Shown piece after piece: positions 45,207-51,687 of a stretch of 64,000 bases of DNA. Origin of the DNA: Natronoarchaeum mannanilyticum (GTDB lineage Archaea > Halobacteriota > Halobacteria > Halobacteriales > Natronoarchaeaceae); NCBI RefSeq assembly GCF_039522665.1, contig NZ_BAAADV010000001.1, forward strand, positions 1,216,133 through 1,280,132, read 5' to 3'. The notes below the pieces were generated by a model. That model was not told where the DNA came from, did no database searches, and saw only the letters and a program-made list of their open reading frames with translations. The position numbers and the translations under genes were made by a program. The stretch's first letter is position 1. Each line of letters begins with the position of its first letter.

Positions 45207-46301
45207 CTACGGCGTCCCCTCGACGCGACGCTCTCCGTCGGTCGCGACGACGCGGACGTCGGCCGGATCGAACGTCACGGTCACCGTCTCGGCGTCCGGC
45301 GCGTCCGCGAAGCGCGCGACCAGCTCCCGGCCGCGCCACCGCAGTCCGACGCGGACGGCACCGCCGAGAAACTCCGTCGTGACGACGTCCGCGGTCAACC
45401 TGTTCGTCGCAGCACTGCTGCGGCCCGCTCCGTCACCGCTGTCGCCGTCGAGTCGTCGAACGTCCTCCGGGCGGACGCAGACCGTCGCGCGCTCGGCGTC
45501 GACGCGGGGGATCAGCAGGTCGAACCCGTCGACGTCCAGCGTCGATCGGTCGTCGCCCGCCGGGCTCACCGCGCCCTCGAACACGTTGTTGTCGCCGAGA
45601 AAGTCCGCGACGAACCGCGTCGCCGGGCGCCGATACACGTCGCGCGGCGTCCCGACCTGCTCGACGCGCCCGCGGTTCATCACCGCCAGCCGGTCGCTGA
45701 TCGCCAGCGCCTCGGACTGGTCGTGCGTGACGTAGACGGTCGTGACGCCCAGCTCCGACTGGATCTCCTGGATCTGGCGGCGCAGGCGCTTGCGCAGCCG
45801 GGCGTCGAGCGCGCTCATCGGCTCGTCGAGCAGCAGCAGGTCGGGGCCGGGCGCCAGCGCGCGGGCCAGCGCGACGCGCTGTCGCTGGCCGCCCGAGAGC
45901 TCGTCGGGATCGCGGTCCTCGAACCCCTCCAGATCGACCAGCGAGAGCAGGTCGGCCACGCGCTCGTCGCGGGACTCGCCGCCCGGCGGGTCCCGAAATC
46001 GCAGCCCGTAGGCGACGTTCTCGGCGACGCTCATGTGGGGGAACAGCGCGTAGTTCTGGAAGACGATGCCGACGTCGCGATCCTCGGGCCGGACGCCGAC
46101 GACCGACTCGCCGCCGATCAGCACCTCGCCCGCGTCGGGCTCCTCGAAGCCGCCGATCGTCCGGAGCGTCGTCGTCTTGCCGCAGCCCGAGGGGCCGACG
46201 AGCGTGAAGAACTCGCCGTCCTCGATCCGGAGGTCGACGCCGTCGAGCGCCGTCGCGCCGCCGTAGCGCTTCGTCACGCCGCGCAGTTCCAGCTCGCTCA
46301 T
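45207..46301 (-). CDS. thiQ: ABC importer ATP-binding protein, thiamine type
   Basis: The 364-residue ATPase has Walker A GPSGCGKTTTLRTIGGFE (residues ~38-55), signature LSGGQRQRVALARAL, Walker B LLLLDEPMSALD and a C-terminal TOBE-type regulatory region (~240-360). It energises the importer encoded by the two genes upstream. Similar ATPases serve spermidine, iron or sulfate, so its thiamine assignment depends on the gene neighbourhood. It starts 57 bp after the permease stop. Confidence 0.85.
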   Translation of the reverse strand: MSELELRGVTKRYGGATALDGVDLRIEDGEFFTLVGPSGCGKTTTLRTIGGFEEPDAGEVLIGGESVVGVRPEDRDVGIVFQNYALFPHMSVAENVAYGLRFRDPPGGESRDERVADLLSLVDLEGFEDRDPDELSGGQRQRVALARALAPGPDLLLLDEPMSALDARLRKRLRRQIQEIQSELGVTTVYVTHDQSEALAISDRLAVMNRGRVEQVGTPRDVYRRPATRFVADFLGDNNVFEGAVSPAGDDRSTLDVDGFDLLIPRVDAERATVCVRPEDVRRLDGDSGDGAGRSSAATNRLTADVVTTEFLGGAVRVGLRWRGRELVARFADAPDAETVTVTFDPADVRVVATDGERRVEGTP

Positions 46302-46358: not shown

Positions 46359-48209
46359 TCAGTATCTCCCTCCGACGCGCTCGATCACCACGAAACTGGC
46401 GCTGGTCACCGCGAGCAACACCGTGCCCATCGCGGTCGCCGGGCCGAGCGTCCGGTCGCCGAGGTAGCGCTCGACGGCGACCGGCATCGTGTAGGCGTCG
46501 CCGCCCTCCGCGAGGATCACCGTCGAGTTGAACTCGCCGATGCTGATCGCCGCGGCGAAGGCGGCGCCCGCGACGACGCCGCTGATCGCGAGCGGAAGTT
46601 CGACGTCGAGCAGCGCCCGCGCCCGCGAGGCGCCCAGCGAGCGGGCGGACTCGACGAGCGACCGGTCGACGCCGCCGACTGCCGGCGCGGCGTTGCGCAC
46701 GACGAACGGGTACGCCGCGGCGGCGTGGGCGGCGACGATCGCGGCGACGCCGGTGACCTGCAGCCGGAACCCGCCGGGCAGCGGGACGCCGAAGACGAGC
46801 CCGCGGAGCAGGCCGACGCCCAGCACGATGCCGCTGACCGCCAGCGGCGCCGTCGCCAGCGCGTCGAGCACGAGGCCGCCGCGCCCGCCGCGGACGCGAC
46901 GCACCGCGACGACGACGCCGGTCGGCACGGCGATCGCGAGCGTCGCCCCCGCAAACAGCAGCGAGTTGCGCACCGCGGGCCAGGGTTTCACCTGGAACGC
47001 GGCGCCCTCTGCCTGCCGATTTATCAGGAACGCGTAGTAGCGCAGCGTCAACCCGTTCGGCCCGGTGAGGCTCTCGACGATCATGCTGGCGATCGGCCCG
47101 ACGAACACGACCGCGACGACCAGCCCGTAGGCGAAGATCGCGAGCCGACTGGGCTTGGCGAGCGCGCGCAGCGACGGAACCAGCGGCGTCCGCTCGCTCG
47201 GCGTCGGCGTCCTGCCCGAGCCGTAGCGCCGCGCCTCGAAGCGCAGGTAGATCGCCAGCACGGCGACTGCGATCGCCGTCTCGACGACGGCCAGCGCCGC
47301 GGCGCCCGCGAGATCGAGCTGGCGGATCCGGCTGTAGATCCACACCTCGACGGTCGCCAGCTCCAGCCCGCCGAGCGCGAGCACGATCGGGAACGTCCGG
47401 AACGTGAACACGAACGTCAGGATCGCCCCGGCCAGCACCGCGGGCGCGAGTTGGGGGACGATCACGTCAAGGAAGGCGCGGCGTCGGCTCGCGCCGAGGC
47501 TCCGGGCGGTCTCGACGGTGCGGGCGTCGACGCTCTCCCAGGCCGCCGTCGCCAACCGGGCGACCAGCGGCGCGTTGTAGAACGCGTGGGCGAGAACGAT
47601 CACCTCCAGCGAGAACAGGATGTCGACCGGGCCGAATCCGACGAGCCCGAGCAGCCGGTTGAACGGCCCGCCGGCGCTGAACATCGCGAAGAAGCCGACC
47701 GCGACCATGATCCCCGGCAGCACGAAGGGGAGAATCGTCAGCGAGCGCAGCAGGTCGCGGCCGGGAAACTCGAAGCGCGCGAGCACGTACGCGCCGGGGA
47801 GTCCGAGCGCGACGCTGGCGACCGTCGAGAGCAGCGCCTGGTAAGCCGTGAAGCCGATCAGTCCGAACGTCGGGACGGGGAAGCCGGCGCGCGCCCAGCC
47901 GACGAGCCCGCGGAGGTGCTCGCCGACTGCGAGCGGATCGGCGAACACGTTCGCGAGGGCGCCCACGTAGAACGGGTCGGTTAGGACGCCGCGGATCGGC
48001 GCCGCGGAGAGGGCGCCGTCGACGAGAATCGCCTCGACGAACACGACCGCGGCGGGGAGGACGAACACGACCGCCAGCACGGCGACCGCGACGCCGGTGG
48101 CCAGTCCGAGCGTGCGCCGTTCCAGCCACTGTCGCGTTCGTCGAACTGCAGCCGACAGCGCGTCCTGCGTCCCCGCACTCGCTTCGGCGTCGTCCCCTCC
48201 GCTCGCCAT
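46359..48209 (-). CDS. thiP: ABC importer permease, two fused permease halves (ThiP-like)
   Basis: A 616-residue membrane protein with about 12 helices and two inner-membrane-component domains, each with an EAA loop: ETARSLGASRRRAFLDVIVP in the first half and ESARSLGASRARALLDVELP in the second. This duplicated single-chain layout is typical of thiamine (ThiP) and ferric (FbpB/SfuB) importers. ATG 48209 follows the binding-protein stop by one base, showing tight coupling. The thiamine role is taken from the binding-protein similarity and a possible thiamine-type operator. Confidence 0.85.
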   Translation of the reverse strand: MASGGDDAEASAGTQDALSAAVRRTRQWLERRTLGLATGVAVAVLAVVFVLPAAVVFVEAILVDGALSAAPIRGVLTDPFYVGALANVFADPLAVGEHLRGLVGWARAGFPVPTFGLIGFTAYQALLSTVASVALGLPGAYVLARFEFPGRDLLRSLTILPFVLPGIMVAVGFFAMFSAGGPFNRLLGLVGFGPVDILFSLEVIVLAHAFYNAPLVARLATAAWESVDARTVETARSLGASRRRAFLDVIVPQLAPAVLAGAILTFVFTFRTFPIVLALGGLELATVEVWIYSRIRQLDLAGAAALAVVETAIAVAVLAIYLRFEARRYGSGRTPTPSERTPLVPSLRALAKPSRLAIFAYGLVVAVVFVGPIASMIVESLTGPNGLTLRYYAFLINRQAEGAAFQVKPWPAVRNSLLFAGATLAIAVPTGVVVAVRRVRGGRGGLVLDALATAPLAVSGIVLGVGLLRGLVFGVPLPGGFRLQVTGVAAIVAAHAAAAYPFVVRNAAPAVGGVDRSLVESARSLGASRARALLDVELPLAISGVVAGAAFAAAISIGEFNSTVILAEGGDAYTMPVAVERYLGDRTLGPATAMGTVLLAVTSASFVVIERVGGRY

Positions 48210-48210
48210 G

Positions 48211-49278
48211 CTATCCCGCGATCTCTCGCGCCCAGTCCTCGACCCAGCCGTCGAGGTTCCCCCGCAGCTCATCGTAGCCGTAGAAGACGGTTTCCGGCGG
48301 TTCGTGGGCGTACTGGTCGAACTCCTCGTTCAGGTCGGCGTCGGTGGTCGCGGGGAACTGGACGTTCAGCGTCGCGATCTGGCCCTGCGCTTCCGGCGAG
48401 AGCACGAAGTCGAAAAAGTCGTGGGCCAGCTCCGAGTTGTCGGAGTCGGCGAAGATTCCCATCCCCTCGGGGTTGGCGTACCCCTGGTCTTCGAGGAAGC
48501 CGAGCTGATGGCGCGACATGTCCAGTCCGTCCCGATTCGCGTACACCTGGTCGGTCGAGTAGGAGACGACCATCGGCCGCTCGCCCTCGCTGTAGGCGCT
48601 GTAGGAGTCCCACCACGAGCCGAGAATCCGGACGCCGTTGTCCTGCAGGTCCCGCCAGTAGTCGAGGTAGCCGTCCTCGCCGTACCGGTCGATCGTCCAC
48701 AGCAGGAACGCCTGCCCGGGGTCGCTCTGCTGGGCGTTCTGGGCGAGCAGCGTCCCCTCGTAGGCCGGTTCGAGCAGCTGGTCGAACGTCTCGGGGCCCG
48801 AGACCTCCCCCTCGTCGTACACGAGGCTGATGTAGCCGGTGTCGTAGGGCAGCAGGCGCTCTTCGGGATCGAACTCCAGTTCCGATTTGACGCTGTCGGC
48901 GTTTCCAATGGTGCCCCGGTCGAGATCCTGAAACAGCGAGTCGTCCAGCTGCTCGTCCGCGCGGATGAGGTCGTCGACGTTGACGCCGAGGTAGACGTCG
49001 GCGTCGAACTCGACGCCCTCGCCGGCACGCTGAACGTAGTGGTTCAGCCCGCTGTCGGGGTTCGTCCACTCGATCTCCACGTCGTCGTGCTCGCTCTCGA
49101 ACTGCTCTTTGATCCACGCGCCGGGCGCGTCGAGCTCGCCCTGCGACTCGAGGAACGAGTCGTAGGTGGCGACCGTGAGCGTTCCGTCGTCACCGGAACT
49201 GCCGGGACTGGCGATACAGCCCGACAGCCCGATCCCCGCCGCGCCGCCGACCGTCGCGAGATACTGGCGTCGTTTCAT
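48211..49278 (-). CDS. thiB: Thiamine-type ABC substrate-binding protein (Tat lipoprotein)
   Basis: The 355-residue protein starts with a Tat leader and lipobox (MKRRQYLATVGGAAGIGLSG, then Cys). The mature part opens GTLTVATYDSFLES and contains LPYDTGYISLVYDEG, SWWDSYSAYSEGERPMVVSYST and QGQIATLNVQFPATTDA, phrases that match TbpA/ThiB-like proteins. It would capture thiamine or a phosphate ester at the cell surface. A perfect palindrome overlaps the start codon (see operator). An alternative ligand such as iron or putrescine is less likely. Confidence 0.82.
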   Translation of the reverse strand: MKRRQYLATVGGAAGIGLSGCIASPGSSGDDGTLTVATYDSFLESQGELDAPGAWIKEQFESEHDDVEIEWTNPDSGLNHYVQRAGEGVEFDADVYLGVNVDDLIRADEQLDDSLFQDLDRGTIGNADSVKSELEFDPEERLLPYDTGYISLVYDEGEVSGPETFDQLLEPAYEGTLLAQNAQQSDPGQAFLLWTIDRYGEDGYLDYWRDLQDNGVRILGSWWDSYSAYSEGERPMVVSYSTDQVYANRDGLDMSRHQLGFLEDQGYANPEGMGIFADSDNSELAHDFFDFVLSPEAQGQIATLNVQFPATTDADLNEEFDQYAHEPPETVFYGYDELRGNLDGWVEDWAREIAG

Positions 49279-49302
49279 TACCCGGTGTTTTCGCCGGGTA
49301 AT
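49277..49302 (-). promoter_or_regulatory. Palindromic operator at the thiamine ABC promoter
   Basis: ATTACCCGG-TGTTTTCG-CCGGGTAAT, a perfect 9-bp inverted repeat with an 8-bp spacer. One arm overlaps the thiB start codon and the other touches a TATA-like CTTATC about 27-33 bp upstream. A regulator bound here would cover the transcription start and block it. Archaeal thiamine genes are often controlled by HTH-CBS regulators of the ThiR type, so that is the leading candidate. Confidence 0.6.
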
Positions 49303-49479
49303 GATAAGGGGAGCGGTACGCAGCGGCGTCTCGACGCCGTCGCCGCGCTTCGCTCGCGACGAGCCCCGACTCGCTTCGCTCGTCGCGACGCCGAACATCA
49401 AAAGCCGCCGCGCTCGATTGAGGGGTCTAGCCGGTCAGCGGGCAGTCTCTCCGGCAGTTCGAGTAGTCCGAGGGTCGAG

Positions 49480-49785: not shown

Positions 49786-50574
49786 TCACTCGGCGTCGGC
49801 CCCGCCGGTCTCGATCGGCCCGCCGGCGTCGGTCCATTCAGTAAAACTCCCCTCGTAGAACTCGACCGTTTCGTAGCCCAGATGCGAGAGCACGGCGTAG
49901 GTGTGGCTGATCCGCCGGGCGGTGTTGCAGTACAGCACGATTCGCCGATCGGTCGTGATGCCGCGCTCCTCGAGGATCGCGCGGATCTCCTCTTCGGGCT
50001 TGAGCCCCCGCGTCTCGTCGTCGACGAGCTCCTTCCAGTCCAGCCGAACGGCGCCGGGGATGTGGCCCTCGGCGAACTCCTCGGCGCGGCGCGTGTCGAC
50101 GATGACGGCGTCGGGGTCGTCCATCGCGGCCTCGACGGTCGCCATGTCGACCAGCGGCGTCGCCTCGGGCTCGCTGACGACGTAGTCGGTCGGCTCGATA
50201 TCGGGCGCGTCGTCGGTGGTCTCGTACTCGCGGTTCCAGGCGCTGTAGTCGCCGTCGAGCAGGTACAGCTCGTCGTGGCCGTAACACAGCGCCGTGACGA
50301 GAAAGCGCGCGGCGAACACGCCGTGGGTGTCGTCGTAGGCGACGATCGGGTCCTCCGGGGTGACGCCGGCCTCGCTCAGCAGCTCGGCGAACCGCTCGGC
50401 GCCGGGCAACATTCCGGCGTCGTCGTCGGCGGCGCTTCGGAACGAGTCGAAGGGGACGTTCGCGGCGCCCGGCACGTGGCCGATCCCGTCGTACTCCCAG
50501 GCGTCGCGCACGTCGACGATCCGCACCTCGTCGGCGTTGGCGTCGAGCCACGCCGGCGACACGAGTTCGATCAT
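49786..50574 (-). CDS. Rhodanese-type sulfurtransferase (two domains)
   Basis: A 262-residue thiosulfate/3-mercaptopyruvate sulfurtransferase with two rhodanese domains. The first (~1-120, VRIVDVRDAWEYDGIGHVPG) has no active-site Cys; the second (~135-255) carries the loop VLYCNTARRIS with catalytic Cys near 217. It transfers sulfane sulfur from thiosulfate or similar donors to cyanide or a thiol acceptor. It is divergent from a second rhodanese gene 258 bp away. Confidence 0.9.
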   Translation of the reverse strand: MIELVSPAWLDANADEVRIVDVRDAWEYDGIGHVPGAANVPFDSFRSAADDDAGMLPGAERFAELLSEAGVTPEDPIVAYDDTHGVFAARFLVTALCYGHDELYLLDGDYSAWNREYETTDDAPDIEPTDYVVSEPEATPLVDMATVEAAMDDPDAVIVDTRRAEEFAEGHIPGAVRLDWKELVDDETRGLKPEEEIRAILEERGITTDRRIVLYCNTARRISHTYAVLSHLGYETVEFYEGSFTEWTDAGGPIETGGADAE

Positions 50575-50832: not shown

Positions 50833-51687
50833 ATGACTGACTACGCAAAGGACGTGCTCGTCTCGGCCGACTGGGTCGAGGGGCACCTCGACGAGTTCCA
50901 GAGCGACGATCCGGAGTATCGACTGGTAGAGGTCGACGTGGACACGGAGGCGTACGACGAGGCACACGCCCCCGGCGCCATCGGCTTCAACTGGGAGACA
51001 CAGCTCCAGGACCAGACCACGCGCGACATCCTCGACAAAGAGGAGTTCGAGGACCTGCTCGGTAGCCACGGCATCTCCGAGGACTCGACGGTCGTCCTGT
51101 ACGGCGACAACTCCAACTGGTTCGCCGCCTACACCTACTGGCAGTTCAAGTACTACGGCCACGACGACGTGAAGCTGCTCGACGGCGGCCGCGAGTACTG
51201 GCTCGAGAACGACTACCCGACCACCGACGAGGAGCCCGACTTCTCCGCGGTCGACTACGAGGCCTCCGGCCCGCGCGAGTCCATCCGCGCGTACCGCGAC
51301 GACGTCGAGAACGCGATCGACAAGGGCCTGCCGCTCGTCGACGTTCGCTCGCCCGAGGAGTACTCCGGCGAGGTTCTCGCGCCCCCAGGACTGCAGGAGA
51401 CCGCCCAGCGCGGCGGCCACATCCCCGGCGCCGAGAACATCTCGTGGGCCGCGGTGACCAACGACGACGGGACGTTCAAGACGCCCGAGGAGCTCGAGGA
51501 GATCTACGGCGAGTACGACATCGACGGCGACCAGACGACCGTCGCCTACTGCCGCATCGGCGAGCGCTCCTCGGTCGCCTGGTTCGCGCTCCACGAGCTG
51601 CTCGGCTACGAGGACGCCGTCAACTACGACGGCTCCTGGACCGAGTGGGGCAACCTCGTGGGCGTGCCGATCGAGAAGGGCGAATAA
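50833..51687 (+). CDS. Rhodanese-type sulfurtransferase (two domains)
   Basis: A 284-residue two-domain sulfurtransferase: inactive N-terminal rhodanese domain (YRLVEVDVDTEAYDEAHAPG) and catalytic domain with VAYCRIGERSSVAWF (Cys near 239). The C-terminus LVGVPIEKGE is the usual end of haloarchaeal thiosulfate sulfurtransferases. It is similar to but distinct from the divergent paralogue. The last 16 bp of the gene are repeated 62 bp downstream. Confidence 0.92.
   Translation: MTDYAKDVLVSADWVEGHLDEFQSDDPEYRLVEVDVDTEAYDEAHAPGAIGFNWETQLQDQTTRDILDKEEFEDLLGSHGISEDSTVVLYGDNSNWFAAYTYWQFKYYGHDDVKLLDGGREYWLENDYPTTDEEPDFSAVDYEASGPRESIRAYRDDVENAIDKGLPLVDVRSPEEYSGEVLAPPGLQETAQRGGHIPGAENISWAAVTNDDGTFKTPEELEEIYGEYDIDGDQTTVAYCRIGERSSVAWFALHELLGYEDAVNYDGSWTEWGNLVGVPIEKGE

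Follow-up and report, generated by a model that had tools for sequence, protein, structure and literature searches.

What does a perfect palindrome do at the very start of a vitamin transport operon? Such a palindrome lies at positions 49277-49302 of the stretch of the Natronoarchaeum mannanilyticum genome analysed here (contig NZ_BAAADV010000001.1, positions 1,216,133 to 1,280,132; 64,000 nucleotides, hereafter the window), overlapping the first codon of a thiB-like gene. A preliminary description, made from the letters of the window, proposed that it is the operator of an archaeal thiamine regulator, of the kind that joins a helix-turn-helix (HTH) domain to CBS domains. Our sequence comparisons indicate that a 20-bp element inside the palindrome (49280-49299, minus strand) is in all likelihood the operator of a ThiR-type HTH-ThiN repressor controlling a thiBPQ uptake operon; the broader proposal, that some thiamine regulator has its operator at this promoter, is well supported because the element is conserved upstream of thiB, thi4 and thiC, recurs at the organism's own thi4, and sits between a TATA-like box and the start codon.

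Promoter layout

The palindrome, ATTACCCGG-N8-CCGGGTAAT, occupies exactly 49277-49302 (plus strand, ATTACCCGGTGTTTTCGCCGGGTAAT); even with spacers of 4-12 bases allowed, the pattern has no other match in the window. As a symmetric feature it has no strand, and its arms stay perfect out to 11 bp (49275-49304). It had been described as a repeat with 9-bp arms and an 8-bp spacer over the start of a thiamine ATP-binding cassette operon, and in this the preliminary description was exact: the thiB ATG is at 49278-49276 on the minus strand, two bases of it belong to the palindrome, and the genes are thiBPQ-like. The minus strand around the start reads ...CTCCCCTTATCATTACCCGGCGAAAACACCGGGTAATGAAACGA..., with a TATA-like TTATCA at 49302-49307 (minus), 24-29 nt upstream of the ATG, where many relatives have TTAAGA or similar.

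Within the palindrome, ACCCGGC-GAAAAC-ACCGGGT matches 11 of the 12 letters of the consensus ACYNRGT-N6-ACYNRGT. This operator core lies 2-21 nt upstream of the ATG, directly after the TATA-like box, and is a pair of self-complementary 7-bp boxes spaced 13 bp apart; the outer ATT/AAT letters of the palindrome run into the last part of the TATA-like box on one side and into the start codon on the other. The symmetry first noted is real, and the unit is this 20-bp pair of boxes instead of the 9-bp-arm palindrome.

Symmetry by itself is no evidence of function. Perfect inverted repeats with arms of at least 9 bp and a gap of at most 12 number 19 in the window, against 8-19 in each of 10 dinucleotide shuffles, and those with arms of at least 11 number two, against 0-3. 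Because such symmetry is common in both, the evidence must come from elsewhere: it is the place between the TATA-like box and the ATG, together with haloarchaeal conservation, that makes the palindrome meaningful.

Conservation at thiB promoters

We collected the best 80 of 159 thiB relatives, comprising 60 haloarchaeal and 20 bacterial loci. Most haloarchaea carry, directly upstream of the ATG, a form close to TTAAGAC-YACYCAGTGYAACNACCGRGTAATG. Alignment at the start codon was possible for 45 haloarchaeal promoters. Of these, 36 match 11-12 of the 12 consensus letters, one matches 10 and eight match 9 or fewer; dinucleotide shuffles reach at least 11 in about 0.2% of cases. The 36 promoters cover 16 named genera. 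The other 15 loci, at first omitted as their alignments did not begin at residue 1-2, were scored later: eight reach 11-12, three reach 10, three reach 8 (L059, L068, L070), and the remaining one (L043) is truncated. Bacterial relatives (n=20) have best scores of 7-9, none above 9, in a stretch starting 100 bp upstream of the inferred first residue; this control replaced a weak one (0 of 20 above 8), in which most alignments began inside the protein. A second genome of the genus (G001) has ACCCAGT-GAAAAC-ACCGGGT, which matches all 12 letters.

Five thiB relatives of Halosimplex, Halolamina and Halobacterium (L064, L066, L062, L067, L071) lack the element despite being haloarchaeal; these genes may have other promoters or other substrates.

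A perfect inverted repeat could fold as RNA, and the element might then be a hairpin, terminator or riboswitch of the thiB transcript. Between 48000 and 50000 we found no Rfam covariance-model match at E up to 1, to the thiamine pyrophosphate (TPP) riboswitch or to any other family. Since the element directly follows the TATA-like box, little of it would be transcribed, and relatives retain the letters of the boxes, few of them with a long perfect stem there. We consider an RNA feature extremely improbable.

Recurrence at thi4 and thiC

A fairer test than the thiB count was to take all 45 thiB 20-mers at their fixed place, unselected, as a matrix and apply it upstream of thi4 and thiC, own genome included. 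Six of 30 thi4 and two of 18 thiC loci were dropped for want of an anchor, and the thiC pieces L154 and L155 (both from genome G039) were not scored. As controls we used 218 upstream regions of mechanically chosen frames of at least 150 aa at the loci of the thiB relatives, which are not curated genes. The 99th percentile of these controls is exceeded by 22 of 24 thi4 regions (one of them, L124, in a shifted register) and by 15 of 16 thiC regions; 18 and 12, respectively, score above every control. No control scores above 9.65, whereas the organism's own thi4 reaches 12.4 and the window site 18.1.

The exact consensus occurs 97 times in 40 genomes, against 46 times for its reversed control. 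Of those 97 places 75 were listed, and 32 of the listed ones fall within 260 bp upstream of a match to thi4 (11), thiC (8) or thiB (13), one of the 32 (thi4 of G018) being a composite across the start codon. That the palindrome arose by chance and has no function is contradicted by the constancy of place and letters over 16 named genera and by the occurrence of the element at three thiamine gene families. Repeats of this size are common in the window, yet we give that idea a vanishingly small probability.

We also read six high-scoring places that relatives carry away from these three genes. In G006, a strong copy (L310:1306-1325) stands just upstream of an unidentified gene between thi4 and an HTH-ThiN gene, and may mark a further member of the regulon. 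In G005, a strong copy (L308:1298-1317) is 6 bp upstream of a universal-stress-protein-like gene, named by eye, and may be chance. The remaining four lie inside frames or have no clear promoter position.

Within the genome of N. mannanilyticum itself (G000), the literal palindrome TACCCGG-N8-CCGGGTA has one place without mismatch. The other places listed carry 2-3 mismatches; these weaker matches are scattered and total 123, compared with 70 for the reversed control. The second occurrence near thiamine genes that the preliminary description led us to look for thus failed to appear as a repeated palindrome, and appeared as the 20-bp element: ACTTTGT-GGTAAC-ACTAGGT, at C1:10791-10810, ends 3 bases upstream of the thi4 ATG. 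This site and that of thiB (C1:1265412-1265431) are each one mismatch off the consensus, so more than one thiamine operon carries the element. Up to one mismatch is found at 50 places, against 30 for the control. The sole exact match, C4:266307, is inside a coding frame and is taken as chance. When 18 one-mismatch places and the exact one were scored with a symmetrised matrix, inspection of C7:391650, C8:137749 and C1:491613 gave no convincing promoter site.

No match to ThiC (PF01964) was found in G000 or G001, the two genomes of this genus that were covered, each about 95% complete, while 19 genomes of the 40 in the search do carry such a match. We suspect that both organisms need external thiamine or its pyrimidine precursor.

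Candidate regulators

Three ThiN proteins are encoded in the genome: a kinase-ThiN fusion (ThiD-ThiN) and two, C1:15229 and C7:564496, in which a helix-turn-helix domain (HTH_3, PF01381) precedes ThiN (PF10120). The latter two (L099:1718-2614 on C1 and L100:2577-3512 on C7) belong to distinct classes. With an E-value limit of 0.001 neither gave a CBS match; the rest of the genome was not searched for HTH-CBS genes. The HTH-CBS label thus does not fit these two proteins; the idea of an archaeal thiamine regulator is well supported by the conservation at thiB, thi4 and thiC.

Similarity sorted 81 ThiN copies from 38 genomes, own genome included, into class A (like C1:15229), class B (like C7:564496) and ThiD-ThiN; three fragments of the 84 were omitted. 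Class A is present in 34 of the 38 genomes. Of the 34 genomes with thi4, 27 have a class A gene no more than 15 kb from it, and one more has ThiD-ThiN as the nearby copy. Class B is present in 17 of 38, own genome among them, and lies 0.7-1.7 kb from thiC in four (G004, G007, G011, G018) of the 19 genomes with thiC. As some genomes are incomplete, the absence of a class may be an assembly gap.

For promoter scores at thi4 and thiC, the median is 15.2 (n=35) in genomes with class A and 6.4 (n=5) in the three genomes that have thi4 and no class A, a contrast with a nominal p of 0.004 among promoters that are not independent. We therefore favour class A as the reader of the operator, on the strength of a correlation and not of proof, and the thi4-linked C1:15229 would be the protein that binds it in this organism.

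That the operator is read instead by the class B paralogue C7:564496, or by both paralogues jointly, is unlikely. Class B has the appropriate HTH and ThiN domains, and its presence in this genome and its proximity to thiC elsewhere count in its favour. Yet the element persists in class A genomes that gave no class B match (median 16.5, n=15, versus 13.4, n=20, with class B), and G012, G028 and G039, where class A is the sole ThiN protein found, have exact sites upstream of both thi4 and thiB.

DNA evidence alone names no protein, so the element could in principle serve an unrelated regulator, such as an HTH-CBS protein, with thiamine genes among its targets by coincidence. We regard this as very unlikely, because HTH-ThiN genes, the type searched for, neighbour thi4 and, in some genomes, thiC, and because a published archaeal thiamine regulator is presented, in the title of its report, as related to thiamine phosphate synthase.

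The transport operon

The genes downstream of the element run in one direction on the minus strand: the thiB-like gene, then a fused permease, then an ATPase. The first (48211-49278) encodes a lipoprotein-type substrate-binding protein of 355 aa that scores 144.1 bits against TIGR01254 (cut-off 93.4), and 100.3 against the stricter thiB equivalog TIGR01276, under its cut-off of 317.15. The thiP-like permease (46359-48209) has two BPD_transp_1 stretches; its open frame begins at 48272, and the ATG at 48209 is the likelier start, judged from the translation. The third gene (45207-46301) encodes a thiQ-like ATPase with a TOBE domain. Among the matches listed, permease and ATPase pass no thiamine equivalog cut-off. 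We thus regard these genes as a thiBPQ-like operon whose binding protein falls within the thiamine family, with thiamine itself as the probable substrate, a qualification that follows from the sub-threshold thiB equivalog score and from the matches of the other two genes.

Near the operon, frames at 49786-50574 and 50833-51687, on opposite strands, resemble rhodanese-like sulfurtransferases (named by eye).

Discussion

Several observations weigh against the assignment of this element to a ThiN-type repressor. With a symmetrised matrix built from 73 sites the window site scores 13.3, below the training median of 20.8 and the lowest tenth at 15.3, and three places in the genome outside thiamine promoters score higher (14.3, 16.7, 16.8), two of them inside frames and one without an adjoining frame of at least 90 aa. 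The upstream box of the window site ends in C where the consensus has T. Across haloarchaea, 9 of 45 thiB promoters fall under 11 letters (two each from Halosimplex and Halolamina, with Halobacterium, two metagenome-assembled genomes, strain SHR40 at 9 and Halovenus salina at 10), and the count of 36 in 45 uses a consensus derived from those same alignments, which makes the thiB-matrix test on thi4 and thiC the fairer one. In that test, the 22 high thi4 scores include two (L107, L111) that arise as composites spanning the start codon and one (L119) that only just clears the threshold. No site was found upstream of either HTH-ThiN gene when we looked for autoregulation in this genome. Finally, the choice of class A is correlative: genomes without it are few, and one of their five promoters owes its score of 15.5 to the G018 composite.

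The weak symmetrised score and the higher-scoring places elsewhere mean that a search of this genome alone would not single out the window site; the relatives carry the argument. Together with the composite matches, the weak score lowers our confidence slightly, and a ThiR-type HTH-ThiN repressor acting at the thiB promoter still accounts best for the conserved element.

How might such a repressor work? Leaderless mRNAs are frequent in haloarchaea, and the TATA-like box 24-29 nt upstream of the ATG would place the transcription start at or near the ATG, probably giving an mRNA of this kind. The two boxes occupy the space from the TATA-like box to the start codon. When thiamine phosphates occupy its ThiN domain, the protein would bind the element and block the assembly or start of RNA polymerase; when they are scarce, it would be released and uptake turned on. 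We predict repression because a protein bound between TATA-like box and start would stand in the way of the polymerase. Thiamine phosphates are the probable ligand, given the ThiN domain with its nearest solved relatives by sequence, 2php (MJ0236) and 2pb9 (deposited as a phosphomethylpyrimidine kinase), and given earlier work on ThiR.

Read in this way, the 20-bp element very probably serves to dock a vitamin-sensing repressor of a kind already known. A thiamine uptake operon is tied to a defined operator, recognisable in at least 16 named genera of haloarchaea, with one HTH-ThiN class as its likely reader, and this offers a route to annotating vitamin B1 regulons, including those of species seemingly without thiC. 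The general picture of archaeal thiamine control is unchanged. What could grow are the two HTH-ThiN classes with their different neighbourhoods and the missing thiC match in both genomes of this genus that were covered. One speculative possibility, which we rate as doubtful, is that the two haloarchaeal paralogues, the thi4-linked class A that almost all genomes have and the patchily distributed class B that adjoins thiC in four of them, recognise related operators but respond to different thiamine intermediates. Uptake by thiBPQ, thiazole synthesis and pyrimidine synthesis would then be tuned separately. If this were true, the transporter operator would, in a genus whose two covered genomes gave no thiC match, control access to an essential vitamin.

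Comparable systems are known. Rodionov, Leyn, Li and Rodionova reportedly described a ThiR regulon of archaea in 2017, with palindromic, lineage-specific operators and with Halobacteria among the lineages. ThiN is likewise said to have been presented as a domain of transcriptional repressors by Hwang et al. in 2017, in work cited regarding thiamine synthesis in Haloferax volcanii. ThiR has been identified in every Haloarcula and Natrinema species studied and balances thiamine synthesis and transport (PMC12029414). Pyrococcus furiosus ThiR is named as a predicted regulator of thiamine transport (PMC10746257).

The element described here resembles the ThiR regulon in kind: it is dyad-symmetric, stands in promoters of thiamine genes (here thiB, thi4 and thiC), and occurs in a genome that encodes proteins with an N-terminal HTH and a C-terminal ThiN domain. 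The presence of ThiN in repressors is a further likeness, shared with the proteins of Hwang et al. The genome differs from the ThiR regulon in having two HTH-ThiN proteins and no thiC match. The TPP riboswitch likewise switches thiamine genes; here, instead, the switch would be a DNA element between the TATA-like box and the start codon.
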